Shown here piece by piece: positions 1,161 to 6,280 of a stretch of 6,280 nt of DNA. Under the pieces are notes generated by a model. It made no database searches. It had not been told where the DNA came from and saw only the letters and a program-made list of their open reading frames with translations. The translations under genes and the position numbers were made by a program. The DNA comes from Candidatus Poribacteria bacterium (GTDB lineage: Bacteria > Poribacteria > WGA-4E > WGA-3G). Position 1 is the stretch's first letter. Every line of letters starts with the position of its first letter. The stretch is taken from positions 1 through 6,280 of the forward strand of contig JAPPMR010000288.1 in NCBI GenBank assembly GCA_028818995.1, given 5' to 3'.

Positions 1161-2474
1161 TTAATTGTAGCTCGGAGTCTCTGTATCCTTAACCGAAAAT
1201 TGTAAGACTGATTTGAGATAACGACCCGGCAGACGTGCCTTGACATGAACAGCATCCTCAGCATATTCCGTGCCTAACACCGTTCCATGCTTATAGAGCA
1301 TATCCAATGCTTTTCCGTCCGTATAAGGGATACTCAGATTGAGCATTGCACCGTGCGAAGCGAAACGTTGTGCTAAGGTCTCTGTCAGCGTTTCAATACC
1401 ATCTCCCCGCTGCGCAGAGATGGATATTGCCTCTGGATAACGGGCTTTCAGAATATGTAGTTGGTCTTCTTTTTCAAGTTGATCTATTTTATTGAATACC
1501 ATGACCATCGGAATATCTGAAGCATCCAATTCTTGAAGCACCGTGTCTACTGCAGCGATTTGTGCTTCTGCTTCTGGATGGCTAATATCCACGACATGCA
1601 ACAACAGATCAGCCTCTGTCACCTCTTCTAAAGTTGCTTTGAATGCAGCAACGAGTTGATGCGGTAACTTCTTGATAAAACCGACGGTATCGCTTAATAG
1701 AATGTTTTGATTTTCTGGTAAATTTACCCGCCGTGTGGTTGAATCTAAGGTGGCAAACAGTTTGTCTTCTGCCAAGACATTTTCGCCTGTTAATGTATTA
1801 AAGAGGGTTGATTTACCAGCGTTGGTATATCCTACGAGAGATACTTTGATTTTTTCTGAACGGTTTTGACGTTGCACCTGTCGCCGTTTTTCAACCGTTT
1901 CTAACGCTTTTTTGACTTGAGAAATTTGCCTGCGAACCCACCGACGGTCCATCTCAAGCTGCGTTTCACCCGGACCACGTAGTGCTCCACTACCGCTGCC
2001 ACCACTGGTTGCGATCCGTGAAAGGTGTGTCCACATCCGTGTGAGTCGTGGGAGTGCATATTCCAATTGCGCTAAAGAGACTTGTAACCGCGCTTCACTA
2101 GTTAATGCACGTTGCGCAAACACCTGTAGGATAAGCCCTGTTCTGTCAACAGTCGCGATATCAAGCATGTTTTCAATATTTCGCGTCTGTGCAGGTGATA
2201 ACTCTTCATCAAAAATGATAGCATCCGCTTCAAGTTCCGCTGCGACATCTTTAAGTTCTTCAACCTTACCTTCTCCAATAAAATAGGTTGGATTCGGCAC
2301 GTTGCGCGATTGAATGGTTTCACACACGACTTCAATCCCCGCAGTTTCGGTCAGTTGTTGGAGTTCTTGCAGCGATTCCTCTGTTTCGTGCATCAAGGCA
2401 TCTCGCAGTTTTACACCCACAAGAATTGCACGAGAGGGTGGATTTGGTGCTTGTGTATCGTATAGTTCTTGCAT
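1161..2474 (-). CDS. hflX: ribosome-associated GTPase HflX
   Basis: A complete 437-residue HflX, a translational GTPase of the Obg-HflX group. The known family binds the large ribosomal subunit and can split stalled or stressed ribosomes; it acts in the cytoplasm. Residues 1-150 form the HflX N-terminal domain, and the family signature GGSGSGALRGPGETQLEMDR lies at 158-177, leading into a basic helical linker. The G domain is complete: G1 GYTNAGKST (215-223), G2 ATLDSTTR (241-248), G3 DTVGF (262-266), G4 NKID (328-331) and G5 SAQ (353-355). A short C-terminal domain (about 376-428) follows. The start is supported by AAAGGGG (2485-2479 on the minus strand), four bases before the ATG. It leads a three-gene operon with the zinc-ribbon and isomerase genes. 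No hfq lies next to it, unlike in many proteobacteria. Confidence 0.97.
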   Translation of the reverse strand: MQELYDTQAPNPPSRAILVGVKLRDALMHETEESLQELQQLTETAGIEVVCETIQSRNVPNPTYFIGEGKVEELKDVAAELEADAIIFDEELSPAQTRNIENMLDIATVDRTGLILQVFAQRALTSEARLQVSLAQLEYALPRLTRMWTHLSRIATSGGSGSGALRGPGETQLEMDRRWVRRQISQVKKALETVEKRRQVQRQNRSEKIKVSLVGYTNAGKSTLFNTLTGENVLAEDKLFATLDSTTRRVNLPENQNILLSDTVGFIKKLPHQLVAAFKATLEEVTEADLLLHVVDISHPEAEAQIAAVDTVLQELDASDIPMVMVFNKIDQLEKEDQLHILKARYPEAISISAQRGDGIETLTETLAQRFASHGAMLNLSIPYTDGKALDMLYKHGTVLGTEYAEDAVHVKARLPGRYLKSVLQFSVKDTETPSYN

Positions 2475-2552: not shown

Positions 2553-2561
2553 TTGCAAATC
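2553..2561 (+). repeat. left flanking direct repeat (putative target-site duplication)
   Basis: TTGCAAATC directly abuts the left inverted repeat. The right inverted repeat is directly followed by TTGCAAATT (2924-2932), identical at eight of nine positions and in the same orientation. This is the arrangement a transposase leaves when it duplicates its target; nine-base duplications are common for several DDE transposase families. The single mismatch would be later mutation. Confidence 0.6.
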
Positions 2562-2587
2562 GGGTGTGTAAAAAAGTTTTGGTACAA
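2562..2587 (+). repeat. left terminal inverted repeat
   Basis: GGGTGTGTAAA followed by AAAGTTTTGGTACAA. The outer 11 bases are perfectly complementary to the right end, and the inner part aligns after a three-A insertion and one further single-base gap. Confidence 0.6.
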
Positions 2588-2637
2588 AGCATATTGTCGG
2601 TTGAGTTTCGCTTCGCCTTCCCGATGGACACCTTCAA

Positions 2638-2724
2638 TTAGGACGTTTGCACGTCACATTTAGGACGTTTGCACGTCACATTTAGGACGTTACACGTCAC
2701 ATTTAGGACGTTTTGCACGTCACA
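2638..2724 (+). repeat. four tandem 21-23 bp dyad repeats
   Basis: Four contiguous units run 2638-2658, 2659-2680, 2681-2701 and 2702-2724. Each reads (T)TTAGGACGT, a short variable core, then ACGTCACA. The cores are TTGC, TTGC, TAC and TTTGC, so all size variation falls in the centre while the arms GACGT and ACGTC stay perfect. Each unit is therefore a dyad that can form a five-base-pair hairpin or bind a dimeric protein. ACGTC of one unit can also pair with GACGT of the next across eight bases. The period of 21-23 bp is close to two helical turns, so repeated sites would face the same side of the DNA, like iterons or clustered operators. No function is shown by the sequence. Confidence 0.9.
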
Positions 2725-2765
2725 GTGACGTGGTAAAACCCAGTCAGGACAAGGAATGTGACGTG
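2716..2765. repeat. inverted half-sites closing the repeat array
   Basis: CACGTCAC (2716-2723), the end of the fourth unit, is followed after one base by its exact complement GTGACGTG (2725-2732). A second inverted copy, TGTGACGTG, occurs at 2757-2765 and complements the CACGTCACA that ends each unit. After it comes ATTTTTCAGCTTTTTT. This makes alternative hairpins possible, a tight one (2716-2732) or a larger one (2716-2765), and the latter followed by T-runs could act as a weak plus-strand terminator. Confidence 0.65.
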
Positions 2766-2871
2766 ATTTTTCAGCTTTTTTGTTTTTTCTTCTCTTTATT
2801 CCTTAGAAATTTTGAGTGTATTGAGAATACTATTTGATTATGTAATAATAATATTAACATAAATATATCGG

Positions 2872-2909
2872 TTTGTCAAGTTAATTTTCAAAAAATAATC
2901 ATTGACAAA
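2872..2909. repeat. inner inverted repeat near the right end of the element
   Basis: TTTGTCAA (2872-2879) and TTGACAAA (2902-2909) are perfect eight-base complements around a 22-base AT-rich spacer. The right copy is part of the imperfect terminal inverted repeat. The left copy may be a second transposase-binding site, or a promoter-like box since TTGACA is a -35 consensus; no good -10 stands at the proper distance. Confidence 0.5.
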
Positions 2910-2923
2910 AACTTTACACACCC
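2902..2923 (-). repeat. right terminal inverted repeat
   Basis: Read on the minus strand from 2923, it begins GGGTGTGTAAA and continues GTTTTTGTCAA, matching the left end in inverse orientation. The direct repeat TTGCAAATT follows immediately outside. Confidence 0.6.
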
Positions 2924-2932
2924 TTGCAAATT
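2924..2932 (+). repeat. right flanking direct repeat (putative target-site duplication)
   Basis: TTGCAAATT matches TTGCAAATC at 2553-2561 in eight of nine positions, and each copy touches the outermost base of an inverted repeat. Confidence 0.6.
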
Positions 2933-3035: not shown

Positions 3036-3740
3036 ATGATGCCTCATGATTATCGGGTTGAGACTGCTGATTATCAAGATTTTATTACCTCTTTACCAGC
3101 AAAATCAGTTGACCTTATCTTAACTGATCCGCCATACTGCATAAGCAAAAAGACAGGATTTAAGTCTGTAAAAAATGGAGAGAAAAGGTTCGCTGTGAGT
3201 ATGGACTTTGGGCAGTGGGATCAGATTGAAGTTAACCTTGAGGATATGGCAATATCGTTTTACGATGCTTTACGACGTGGGGGAACTGCTATTGTTTGGT
3301 ATGATATTTGGAAAATAGATAGGCTAAAGGAAGCGATGGAATCTGCTGGCTTTAAGATGATTCGGTTGATTATCTGGCAGAAAACCAATCCTGTACCGCT
3401 GAATATGAGGGCAACCTATCTGTCCAATAGTAGAGAAGTAGCAGTTACGGGAGTAAAAGTCGGCAAACCTACCTTCAATAGCGAATATGATTCTGGTATT
3501 TATGAATATCCTATCCCACGCCACAATGGAAACAGGGTGCATCCAACGCAAAAACCTTTACCACTCTTTGAAGATTTGGTGCAAAAACATAGTAATATGG
3601 GGGATTTGGTCGTGGACCCGTTTCTCGGTTCAGGCACTACAGGTGTTGCCGCTATTAGAAATTCCCGTAGATTCGCTGGTTGTGACTTAGACACAAACTA
3701 TGTAAAAATAGCGCGTGAAAGAATAGAAATGTGTTCTTAA
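3036..3740 (+). CDS. solo DNA methyltransferase, beta class, probably adenine-N6
   Basis: A complete 234-residue S-adenosylmethionine-dependent DNA methyltransferase of the N4/N6 amino-methyltransferase family. The catalytic motif IV is DPPY at residues 31-34; DPPY is typical of adenine-N6 enzymes, while cytosine-N4 enzymes usually have SPPY. HPTQKP (169-174) corresponds to motif X, DPFLGSGTTG (194-203) is the AdoMet-binding motif I, and GCDLD (215-219) looks like motif II. The order IV, then X and I, is that of the beta class. The stretch between about 117 and 165 is short and probably contains target recognition, so the recognised site cannot be predicted. All core motifs are present and the length is normal for compact phage-like or solo enzymes. 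No restriction endonuclease is in view. A second in-frame ATG follows at 3039. The stop TAA overlaps that of the convergent sigma-propeller gene. Confidence 0.92.
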   Translation: MMPHDYRVETADYQDFITSLPAKSVDLILTDPPYCISKKTGFKSVKNGEKRFAVSMDFGQWDQIEVNLEDMAISFYDALRRGGTAIVWYDIWKIDRLKEAMESAGFKMIRLIIWQKTNPVPLNMRATYLSNSREVAVTGVKVGKPTFNSEYDSGIYEYPIPRHNGNRVHPTQKPLPLFEDLVQKHSNMGDLVVDPFLGSGTTGVAAIRNSRRFAGCDLDTNYVKIARERIEMCS

Positions 3741-6280
3741 TTTGTAGACCGGGAGCTAATGACATCACCAACTTTTAGCGGTTTTTCCTCAAGCAAAATA
3801 TGGAAAATCCCGTGCTGTTTTGTAGCGATATAAAGTTTATCACTACTCACCGCTACAGATAGCACTTTATCAGGGATACTTGAAGAAAACTGATTCCATT
3901 TACTATCAGAATCTAAGCGGTAAATGCCCATATCCCCAACACCATATAAACTTAATCCATTTACAGCGAGTTTATCTATGACGATATGTGTTCCAACATT
4001 ATCGGTGAGCGGACGCCAATATTCGCCAGTTTGCGAACATAAGACTCCTTTATCTGTTGCTACATATACCTTCATATTCGCAAATACGATATCCTTAATA
4101 TGGGTAAAGGTTGAGGGTAGACTCAACGTTATGTCCCTCCAACTTTCTCCGCCATTGATGGATTGGAATAGTTTCCCATCTCGTTTACCCACATAGACAG
4201 TTTGTGATGCAGCAGCTACCTTGAACCCATTATCCATTTCATGATCAGGGTGGTTGTTTGTATCTATCAAGCCGGTGTCCGTAAATATTAAACTGTCCGT
4301 ATCCCATTTTAAAAGCCTATTTTTATATGGTATGAAAATTGTGTTATTTTCTGTGAATTCGGTATTCTGTTTTCCTTCAGAGAGCAGTGTAGTGGATGAT
4401 TTGGCGTTTTTCCACAGTTCCCGAGAAGATATCCTTTGAACCAATGAAAACGCAGCTTCACCTATGCGTAAACGGAAAATATCTAAATCTTCACCTTGCA
4501 ATGAAATTAGGTAAAGAGATTTGCCAACAATCATAAACTTGGAATCCGTAAGATGATGTACATAAGACCCTGACTGTCCGATCTGTTCGGATATGTACTG
4601 CCCATAATCAAAACGCACCGGCACCCATATTTTCTCGTTGTCCATCGTTTCATAAATGTCGCTACCTGTATATACATAAAGTCGATTGTTAAATGAAATC
4701 AACTCCTGGACATCTGTTCCTACAATTCCATTCATGAAAGAGTGCCACGTTGTGCCACTATCAACTGTGCGATGAATGCTGAACTTATCCAATTTGTAAA
4801 AAGTATTCTCATCTATCGCTATAACTGTAGCATGTGCTGACGGTGATGATTTTGTGTCAAATCCAAGGTTTGCCCACGTTTGCCCCGCATCTGTTGATTG
4901 GAAAGTTGGAACACCTAAAACGAACAACGTCGGACCTTTTGCCATAATACGAGTAGGACTTGCAGGCGATGTGCCTATCATGAAATATTTATCTTTAGGC
5001 GTTATATCAGTCCACGTCATACCAAGGTTCGTTGAGTGGAATATCTTACGAGCACCTCTATTCTTTGTATCGGAAAGGTCATTGGTAAGAAAATCTTGCC
5101 CCGTTGCTACATAAAGGTCATTCTCATCAACTGCCAATGCATGGACAGCGTTGTCGGCATCATCTACCACAGATAATTGTTCCAAATCATCTAAAATCAA
5201 GCGATAAAGCCCTTGGTTCGTGCCAATAAACACAGCATTCCCTATCGCGGCGACTGCTGTAATCTTTTTATTTGTCAACCTATCATTGAGTGGAATCCAC
5301 TTTCTACCAGCATCGGTAGACCGAAATACACCTTTATCCTGCGTAGCAATATACATAATAAAATTTGTGCGTGATTGTCGTTCGAATGTTTTATCCATTA
5401 TGACCAATCCAATAGGTTTCCCAATTGGACGGGAAGAAAATACTTGCCATGAGGTGCTATCGTCAGTTGACGTGTATATATTATCGCTACCGACAACATA
5501 TAACGTCTCCTGATATTCAGCGATTGGTGCCCCGATGATACTTGTAGGTGTGCTTGCGCTTATATTTTTCCATGATGTCCTGCCTCTGCTTAATTTGTAA
5601 ACACCAGTCCATGAAAATGCGTAAAGATTACCATTTGAGGTAGAAAAGAGATTATAGACAGGATCACCTTGCGGTACGTATGTCTGTTTCCATACCGATG
5701 ATAAATGCGTAACATTCTCGCGTGCATTATTGACTAAGACCGCTTCAGATGCTTGTGACTCATCATTATCAACATTACCATCAAGAATACTCTTCCCCAC
5801 TTGATTGTGCAAGGCAGGTTTAGAAACAGTATCAAGGTGTATAGGAGATTCAACAATTTCAATCGTCGGTTCTGATTGGGCATTAAAGTCATACGGTTTT
5901 TGAATAAGACCCAGTCGTTGACTCATCGCACCTAACAATAATATAACCAAGACCGCAGCAGTGCCAAAAGCGATCCACGGTAGTAATGGTTTTGCTACCT
6001 GTGGTGTCGGTTTTATGTCTGCAATCTGCTTCATGATGCTTTTGGTTAGATCTGTAGATAGCTGCAAACCGCCAAATGCCTCAGACATCAAGAGATGTTC
6101 TTCCGATTCTAATCGGTTTCTTGCCCGATGCAGCCTACTTTTGATGGTGTTGGCGGATACACCTAAGAAATTACCTATATCCTTTACGGACATTTCACTG
6201 AGATAATAGAGGATTATGACAGTGCGTTCACTCTCCGGCAATTTTTCCAATAGTTTCTTGACGACTTCGCGGTAATTTTC
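3737..6280 (-). CDS. ECF-like sigma factor region 4 fused to membrane anchor and Asp-box propeller (5'-partial)
   Basis: The reading frame is open to the window edge, giving 847 visible residues; the first in-frame start-like codon at 6250 (TTG) lies within region 4, so the true start is outside. Residue 1 is the codon at 6280. Residues 1-60 are sigma-70 region 4, with LPESER and the helix-turn-helix SVKDIGNFLGVSANTIKSRL (31-50) expected to contact the -35 element. A hydrophobic helix at about 99-120 (PLLPWIAFGTAAVLVILLLG) predicts a membrane anchor. A low-complexity acidic spacer to about 190 leads to a repeated beta-propeller with Asp-box/BNR-like motifs: STDDSTSW (271), STDAGRKW (321), STNLGMTW (416), STDAGQTW (462), TVDSGTTW (505), SINGGESW (707) and weaker ones near 544, 749 and 789. 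The propeller would be outside the cytoplasm if region 4 is inside. Region 2 should lie upstream. It could be a membrane-tethered sensor sigma factor; ligand and targets are unknown. Confidence 0.88.
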   Translation of the reverse strand, partial: ENYREVVKKLLEKLPESERTVIILYYLSEMSVKDIGNFLGVSANTIKSRLHRARNRLESEEHLLMSEAFGGLQLSTDLTKSIMKQIADIKPTPQVAKPLLPWIAFGTAAVLVILLLGAMSQRLGLIQKPYDFNAQSEPTIEIVESPIHLDTVSKPALHNQVGKSILDGNVDNDESQASEAVLVNNARENVTHLSSVWKQTYVPQGDPVYNLFSTSNGNLYAFSWTGVYKLSRGRTSWKNISASTPTSIIGAPIAEYQETLYVVGSDNIYTSTDDSTSWQVFSSRPIGKPIGLVIMDKTFERQSRTNFIMYIATQDKGVFRSTDAGRKWIPLNDRLTNKKITAVAAIGNAVFIGTNQGLYRLILDDLEQLSVVDDADNAVHALAVDENDLYVATGQDFLTNDLSDTKNRGARKIFHSTNLGMTWTDITPKDKYFMIGTSPASPTRIMAKGPTLFVLGVPTFQSTDAGQTWANLGFDTKSSPSAHATVIAIDENTFYKLDKFSIHRTVDSGTTWHSFMNGIVGTDVQELISFNNRLYVYTGSDIYETMDNEKIWVPVRFDYGQYISEQIGQSGSYVHHLTDSKFMIVGKSLYLISLQGEDLDIFRLRIGEAAFSLVQRISSRELWKNAKSSTTLLSEGKQNTEFTENNTIFIPYKNRLLKWDTDSLIFTDTGLIDTNNHPDHEMDNGFKVAAASQTVYVGKRDGKLFQSINGGESWRDITLSLPSTFTHIKDIVFANMKVYVATDKGVLCSQTGEYWRPLTDNVGTHIVIDKLAVNGLSLYGVGDMGIYRLDSDSKWNQFSSSIPDKVLSVAVSSDKLYIATKQHGIFHILLEEKPLKVGDVISSRSTN

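Follow-up and report, generated by a model that had tools for sequence, protein, structure and literature searches.

Insertion sequences of the prokaryotic Mutator-like (p-MULT) type carry inverted repeats of 18-39 bp and are flanked by direct repeats of 8 or 9 bp, as described by Guerillot et al. (2014; PMC3942029). In their account, TnGBS and related elements insert 15-17 bp upstream of the -35 box. Several members of the ISKra4 group insert at the same distance, and promoter targeting is given as known for ISKra4 insertion sequences. A contact of the transposase with the RNA polymerase initiation complex was proposed by these authors, who also refer to the eukaryotic, non-autonomous Pack-MULEs that insert near the 5′ ends of genes. 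ISKra4 and ISLre2 elements are described as preferring distances of 50-250 bp from genes (PMC9208149), and MITEs with sigma70-like promoters are known (PMC10969869). No ISKra4-dependent MITE was found in the literature searched, most subscription papers lying outside the search; nor did the search find anything on miniature inverted-repeat elements in Poribacteria or on non-autonomous elements of the ISKra4 family.

The window analysed here is the whole stretch of 6,280 nucleotides from a Candidatus Poribacteria genome. It contains a spacer bounded by hflX (minus strand) and an N6/N4 DNA methyltransferase gene (plus strand), and the spacer holds a block at 2562-2923. The features are as follows.

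1161-2474, minus strand: hflX (TIGR03156, E 1.4e-140), the gene downstream of the promoter-like site at 2545-2516
2545-2516, minus strand: hflX promoter-like site, TTGAAA-N18-TAAACT
2553-2561, no strand: left target duplication, TTGCAAATC; a single TTGCTAATT stands in the empty sites
2562-2923, no strand: MITE of 362 bp; the nearest genome compared (G001) has several copies, whose matches end at or close to these positions, and in G004 and G005 the site is empty
2562-2582, plus strand: left terminal inverted repeat with three extra A, from comparison with full ISKra4 elements
2638-2724, plus strand: array of four 22-bp units; the unit count by one motif is 0 to 4 over 23 rows
2706-2784, plus strand: palindromic core module, also present outside this MITE in other species
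2879-2851, minus strand: internal promoter-like site, TTGACA-N17-TAATAT, in 23 of 23 rows, its hexamer columns more conserved than the rest
2903-2923, minus strand: right terminal inverted repeat, GGGTGTGTAAAGTTTTTGTCA (end inward), 21 nt identical to both ends of the L107 ISKra4 element
2924-2932, no strand: right target duplication, TTGCAAATT
3036-3740, plus strand: N6/N4 DNA methyltransferase gene (PF01555)

The 21 best named relatives of the HflX protein are 76-95% identical and all come from Candidatus Poribacteria metagenome-assembled genomes; the next relative is 46% identical and belongs to another phylum. G001 has 73% of the sampled 31-letter words in common with the window. Among the loci compared, the methyltransferase gene was matched beside hflX only in G001 and G018 (L138, named twin L154). 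Read by eye, a long open frame on the minus strand of 3737-6280 seems to begin like a sigma factor and to continue into a membrane segment and a part rich in repeats, and positions 1-55 look like a tRNA gene of which the window edge leaves only the 3′ part. Neither the window nor four related loci had an Rfam match that passed the gathering score.

The preliminary description had proposed a 362-bp non-autonomous MITE with inverted ends, an imperfect extension of these ends, flanking direct repeats and an internal repeat array, and each of these features was recovered. The perfect 11-bp inverted ends, GGGTGTGTAAA, lie at 2562-2572 and 2913-2923. At the left end three extra A follow base 11, beyond which the match continues (GTTTTGG against GTTTTTG). 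The terminal inverted repeats are about 21 bp long, imperfect at the left end and within the p-MULT range given in PMC3942029. The direct repeats TTGCAAATC and TTGCAAATT are 9 bp long with one mismatch. The window has six pairs of perfect 11-bp inverted repeats whose starts are 60-1000 bp apart, against an average of 1.9 in 200 first-order Markov resamples. Direct-repeat flanks matching in at least 8 of 9 bases were found at one of the six pairs and at none in the 200 resamples. No ORF of at least 60 aa lies wholly inside 2562-2923, and in having no such transposase ORF the element differs from a full member of the ISKra4 group.

Copies of the element were compared among related genomes. G001 carries the same insertion at the same place (96% identity over 999 bp) and has eight further places, of 281-360 bp, that match the 362-bp element. 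The match ends no more than 4 bases from window position 2923 in seven of the eight; it starts at 2561 or 2562 in four and at 2544, 2557, 2573 and 2635 in the rest. Long matches are also present in G004 and G005. Upstream of hflX, the whole element was found only in G001 among the 18 congeneric genomes, while about 90 bp of its core module are seen at this locus in G003 and G015. In G004 and G005 the region upstream of hflX matches the window on both sides, without the element and with a single TTGCTAATT; therefore the insertion is most likely to have occurred in the lineage to which the window and G001 belong. Single copy, conservation upstream of hflX and similarity running past the ends had been named beforehand as findings that would speak against a MITE, and none of them was obtained, the similarity between copies mostly ceasing at the proposed ends or a few bases from them. 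The two checks proposed with them, for an empty site and for a full insertion sequence with the same ends, both gave a positive result, the latter in the ISKra4 family. In the hflX upstream region of G018 (L138) a different insertion of roughly 120-130 bp, with the ends CAGAGCC / GGCTCTG, was noted by eye at the same place.

Target duplications were scored in 57 element rows, which are paired ends in related loci (the window excluded; a few rows share an end). Exact duplications of 9 bp were present in 12 rows and of 8 bp in 6; 3 rows matched in 8 of 9 bases and 36 had none. In the control of 3,180 mismatched flank pairs there was no exact and one near duplication. For the 21 rows of the 362-bp family the corresponding numbers were 4 (exact 9-bp), 4 (exact 8-bp), 1 (8 of 9) and 12 (none). 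The block is short, has no transposase gene, exists in many copies whose similarity ends at the terminal inverted repeats, and has a target duplication and an empty site. As judged from sequence, it is a MITE in a Candidatus Poribacteria genome. The basis for this is the copies, the ends, the duplication, the empty site, the full elements sharing the ends and the fixed distance to promoter-like sites. It is part of a large family, probably mobilised by a transposase encoded elsewhere, whose members often land at an almost constant distance upstream of host promoters.

Among 59 related genomes, 21 had a match to the ISKra4 transposase model, and 11 places exceeded the curated cut-off (NF033572). 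At six of these places, in four genomes, both ends are present: L106 and L057 (G035), L107 (G009), L109 and L128 (G010), and L110 (G015). Their transposases are single open frames of 427-460 aa, all above the cut-off, and the inverted ends, GGGTGTGTAAAGTTTT, are 1,430-1,480 bp apart with at most one mismatch per end. Among the remaining five places, with up to 3 mismatches allowed, L105 and L126 (G049, another family) have no ends and L108 and L127 have one end; G010:2412693-2413844 is without its own locus. Asp185, Asp264 and Glu378 (L106 numbering) are invariant across the six transposases and are candidates for the DDE triad. The six intact elements show two exact 9-bp duplications, one of 8 bp offset by one base, and three without any. 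Between the MITE and the full ISKra4 elements the match is limited to the outer 18-39 bp. None of the six ISKra4 matches in G001 was both full-length and uninterrupted.

The 18-nt end, with at most one mismatch, was found in 54 of 117 genomes. These include 53 of the 58 in the window's family, among them all 18 of the genus; outside the family it occurred in 1 of 59 genomes, as one match. The reversed end pattern, used as a control, gave one match across all 117 genomes. There are as many as 248 end-sequence matches in G010 (one contig) and as many as 290 in G014. By sequence, the elements bounded by these ends form several groups, of which the 362-bp type is one. The shared ends point to an ISKra4 transposase as the mover of the 362-bp MITE, and on present comparisons the element is best classed with the ISKra4 group, as a non-autonomous derivative whose insertions lie just upstream of promoters.

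Longer elements with the same ends were also seen. A 2,754-bp element at L100:548-3301 (G001 C34:141047-143800) has an 8-bp duplication, ATTTGGAT, and encodes a subtilisin-like protein (Peptidase_S8) of 448 aa, with no ISKra4 gene seen inside. It is perhaps a bacterial counterpart of the Pack-MULEs. Among 30 genomes, the Peptidase_S8 gene has a relative in G001 and G012 only, and the G012 copy is without paired ends. The elements at L092:487-1836 (1,350 bp) and L093:507-2183 (1,677 bp), a part of which is in L097, contain about 1 kb without a recognised gene or Rfam family.

In the window, 16 bp separate the left end of the element from the -35 box of the hflX promoter-like site, the element being on the upstream side. 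This site is a modest match (9 of 12 bases, spacer 18). Of the 18 congeneric genomes, 13 have its TTGAAA/TAAACT hexamers upstream of hflX; the spacer is 17 nt in 12 of these and 18 nt in G001, and in the other five genomes the hexamers were not found at the place searched. To address the position of promoters at other insertions, sigma70-like promoters (at least 9 of 12 bases, spacer 16-18) were called reading outward from each element end. Junctions with a flank of less than 90 nt, or with the first 60 nt outward repeated, were dropped. Of 148 unique junctions, 48 had a promoter starting at a distance of 15-17 bp; the mean was 1.8 (maximum 5) in the other 3-nt bins and 1.35 (maximum 5) in base-shuffled flanks. 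In a second set of 30 loci from six genomes, partly the same as in the first set, 12 of 44 new junctions had a promoter at 15-17 bp, and the other bins had a mean of 0.67 (maximum 2). Some ends with two mismatches are possibly false ends, which are expected to dilute the 15-17 bp signal. An ORF of at least 100 aa started 40-250 nt outward at 36 of 47 promoter junctions vs 38 of 107 others, junctions with a flank of less than 900 nt being left out.

Among the two-ended insertions, 36 of 60 had a promoter at 15-17 bp, and at the control offset of 25-27 bp a promoter was present in 2 of 60. The remaining 24 had no promoter at the threshold used. The promoter lay at the left end only in 16, at the right end only in 16 and at both ends in 4; this mixed orientation differs from TnGBS/ISLre2 elements (p-MULT 3), which mostly insert in one orientation according to PMC3942029. 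Judged by these distances, insertion of this end-sequence family is promoter-directed. These results suggest that the gene-less elements keep the promoter targeting of ISKra4 within a range of 3 bp. The same rules are in print for the ISKra4 group, and we infer that the targeting of the MITE stems from the ISKra4 transposase. It may operate via the transcription machinery, as proposed for TnGBS.

Taken as a whole, the block is very probably a MITE that keeps ends for an ISKra4 (p-MULT 4) transposase in trans and that inserted near the hflX promoter with duplication of 9 bp. In this mechanism the non-autonomous element would be recognised at its ends by the ISKra4-family enzyme supplied in trans and would insert 16 bp upstream of the hflX -35 box, 9 bp being duplicated. 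The hflX promoter would be left in place and the DNA further upstream displaced by 371 bp. Several observations count against this explanation. G001 yielded no ISKra4 match that is full-length as well as uninterrupted, and the MITE has only its outer 18-39 bp in common with the full elements. By the rules used, duplications are absent in 36 of 57 rows (in the 362-bp family, 12 of 21) and in 3 of 6 intact insertion sequences. Of the 60 two-ended insertions, 24 are without a promoter; the hflX promoter of the window is a modest match, and its hexamers were missing at the place searched in 5 of 18 congeneric genomes. The spacer region is also rich in promoter-like sites, 10 being found vs 2.6 expected.

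Selection in place of targeting would mean that insertion itself is indiscriminate and that survival is limited to copies in harmless upstream regions. Purging of insertions within genes is expected anyway, which counts for this possibility; the peak, however, spans only 15-17 bp with the neighbouring bins at background, and survival alone predicts no such narrow distance. We regard it as quite improbable. Movement of the element by another transposase family, for example of the IS256 type, draws on the 8-9 bp duplication being common to all Mutator-like families (PMC3942029), but the same ends are carried by ISKra4 elements. A search covering the IS256 type found no Transposase_mut (PF00872) in the three carrier genomes G001, G004 and G005, while the control search was positive in 6 of 14 known genomes; IS256 (p-MULT 1) was rejected as the partner, and the probability left to any other family is slightly lower still. 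The idea of a fixed, non-mobile regulatory or REP-like repeat takes up the palindromic half-sites and the core module that the 362-bp element has in common with other repeats. The empty site, the duplications and the copies at unrelated places refute it for the whole block, making it the most improbable reading of all, though the core module by itself is still compatible with it. At E 1e-4 or better, 12 of 59 genomes contain sequence related to the core, and several of them have it outside this MITE. Examples are L235-L242 (G003) and L243-L248 (G015); in G003 the module is seen within a repeat of ~480 bp and alone.

The MITE, read as an ISKra4-dependent element, carries a promoter-like site of its own, on the minus strand and 44 nt inward from the right end. 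Every row of the 362-bp family has it, counting the window and its ortholog in G001, and in 21 rows it reads TTGACA/TAATAT; the variants are L009 (TGATAT) and L263 (TTGACG with TATAAT; 73% identical over the match). Over 21 copies (L001 and L254 left out) conservation is 0.99 and 0.98 for the hexamers, 0.93 for the 17-nt spacer and 0.90 for the other columns of that half. Transcription from this site would cross the palindromic core and then the 22-bp array of variable length, and the element's internal promoter is presumably active. The AT-rich spacer has other promoter-like sites, including one on the plus strand at 2821-2849. A host promoter scoring at least 9 faces the left end in 10 of the 23 rows and the right end in 5, one of them having both; the orientations are mixed and give no support for a set direction of the internal promoter relative to that of the host.

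RNA structure as the reason for the core module is likewise unsupported, RNAalifold giving about -2.5 kcal/mol on either strand for 58 modules. Compared with shuffled sequences, the minus-strand transcript is better folded by 1.8 sd, and 9 of 200 shuffles equal or surpass it. For the plus strand of the whole element the folding z is -4.3, which we attribute to the inverted ends and palindromes. The hairpin top pair and third half-site, scored in 50 of 60 modules, read A/A/T in 29, A/A/G in 9, C/C/G in 7, A/C/G in 4 and C/A/T in 1. This pattern would be as compatible with a protein site or with repeat homogenisation as with RNA. It is a speculative and rather unlikely idea that the 362-bp family is a self-spreading, promoter-docking regulatory cassette, in which an internal sigma70 promoter and a 22-bp repeat array of varying length, its units two helical turns apart, would be placed just upstream of host promoters and tune host genes in these Poribacteria.

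Among the described systems, the ISKra4 group in PMC3942029 is alike in the ends (those of Poribacteria ISKra4 elements), the 8-9 bp duplications, the position 15-17 bp upstream of -35 and the promoters on either side. It is unlike the MITE in that the latter is 362 bp long, has no transposase gene and has a core unrelated beyond the outer 18-39 bp. TnGBS/ISLre2 elements are alike in their insertion 15-17 bp upstream of sigma-A promoters (PMC3942029). The Correia element and other promoter-bearing MITEs are also short and multicopy with an internal sigma70-like promoter, but their ends and host are different, and ISKra4, ISLre2, IS256 and Mutator are absent from the main text of the review that describes them (PMC10969869). 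The parts are of known kinds; the combination was not found in the literature searched. The ISKra4 family, the promoter targeting and the element's own promoter-like site are new here, beyond the preliminary description.

The finding describes a reservoir of small mobile elements tied to one transposase family, in a phylum known here only from metagenome-assembled genomes. End-sequence matches number 24 to 290 in 16 of the 18 genomes of the genus (4 and 6 in the other two), so many host promoters may carry an insertion just upstream. The filled hflX sites of the window and G001 and the empty sites of G004 and G005 are natural pairs for testing an effect on transcription.
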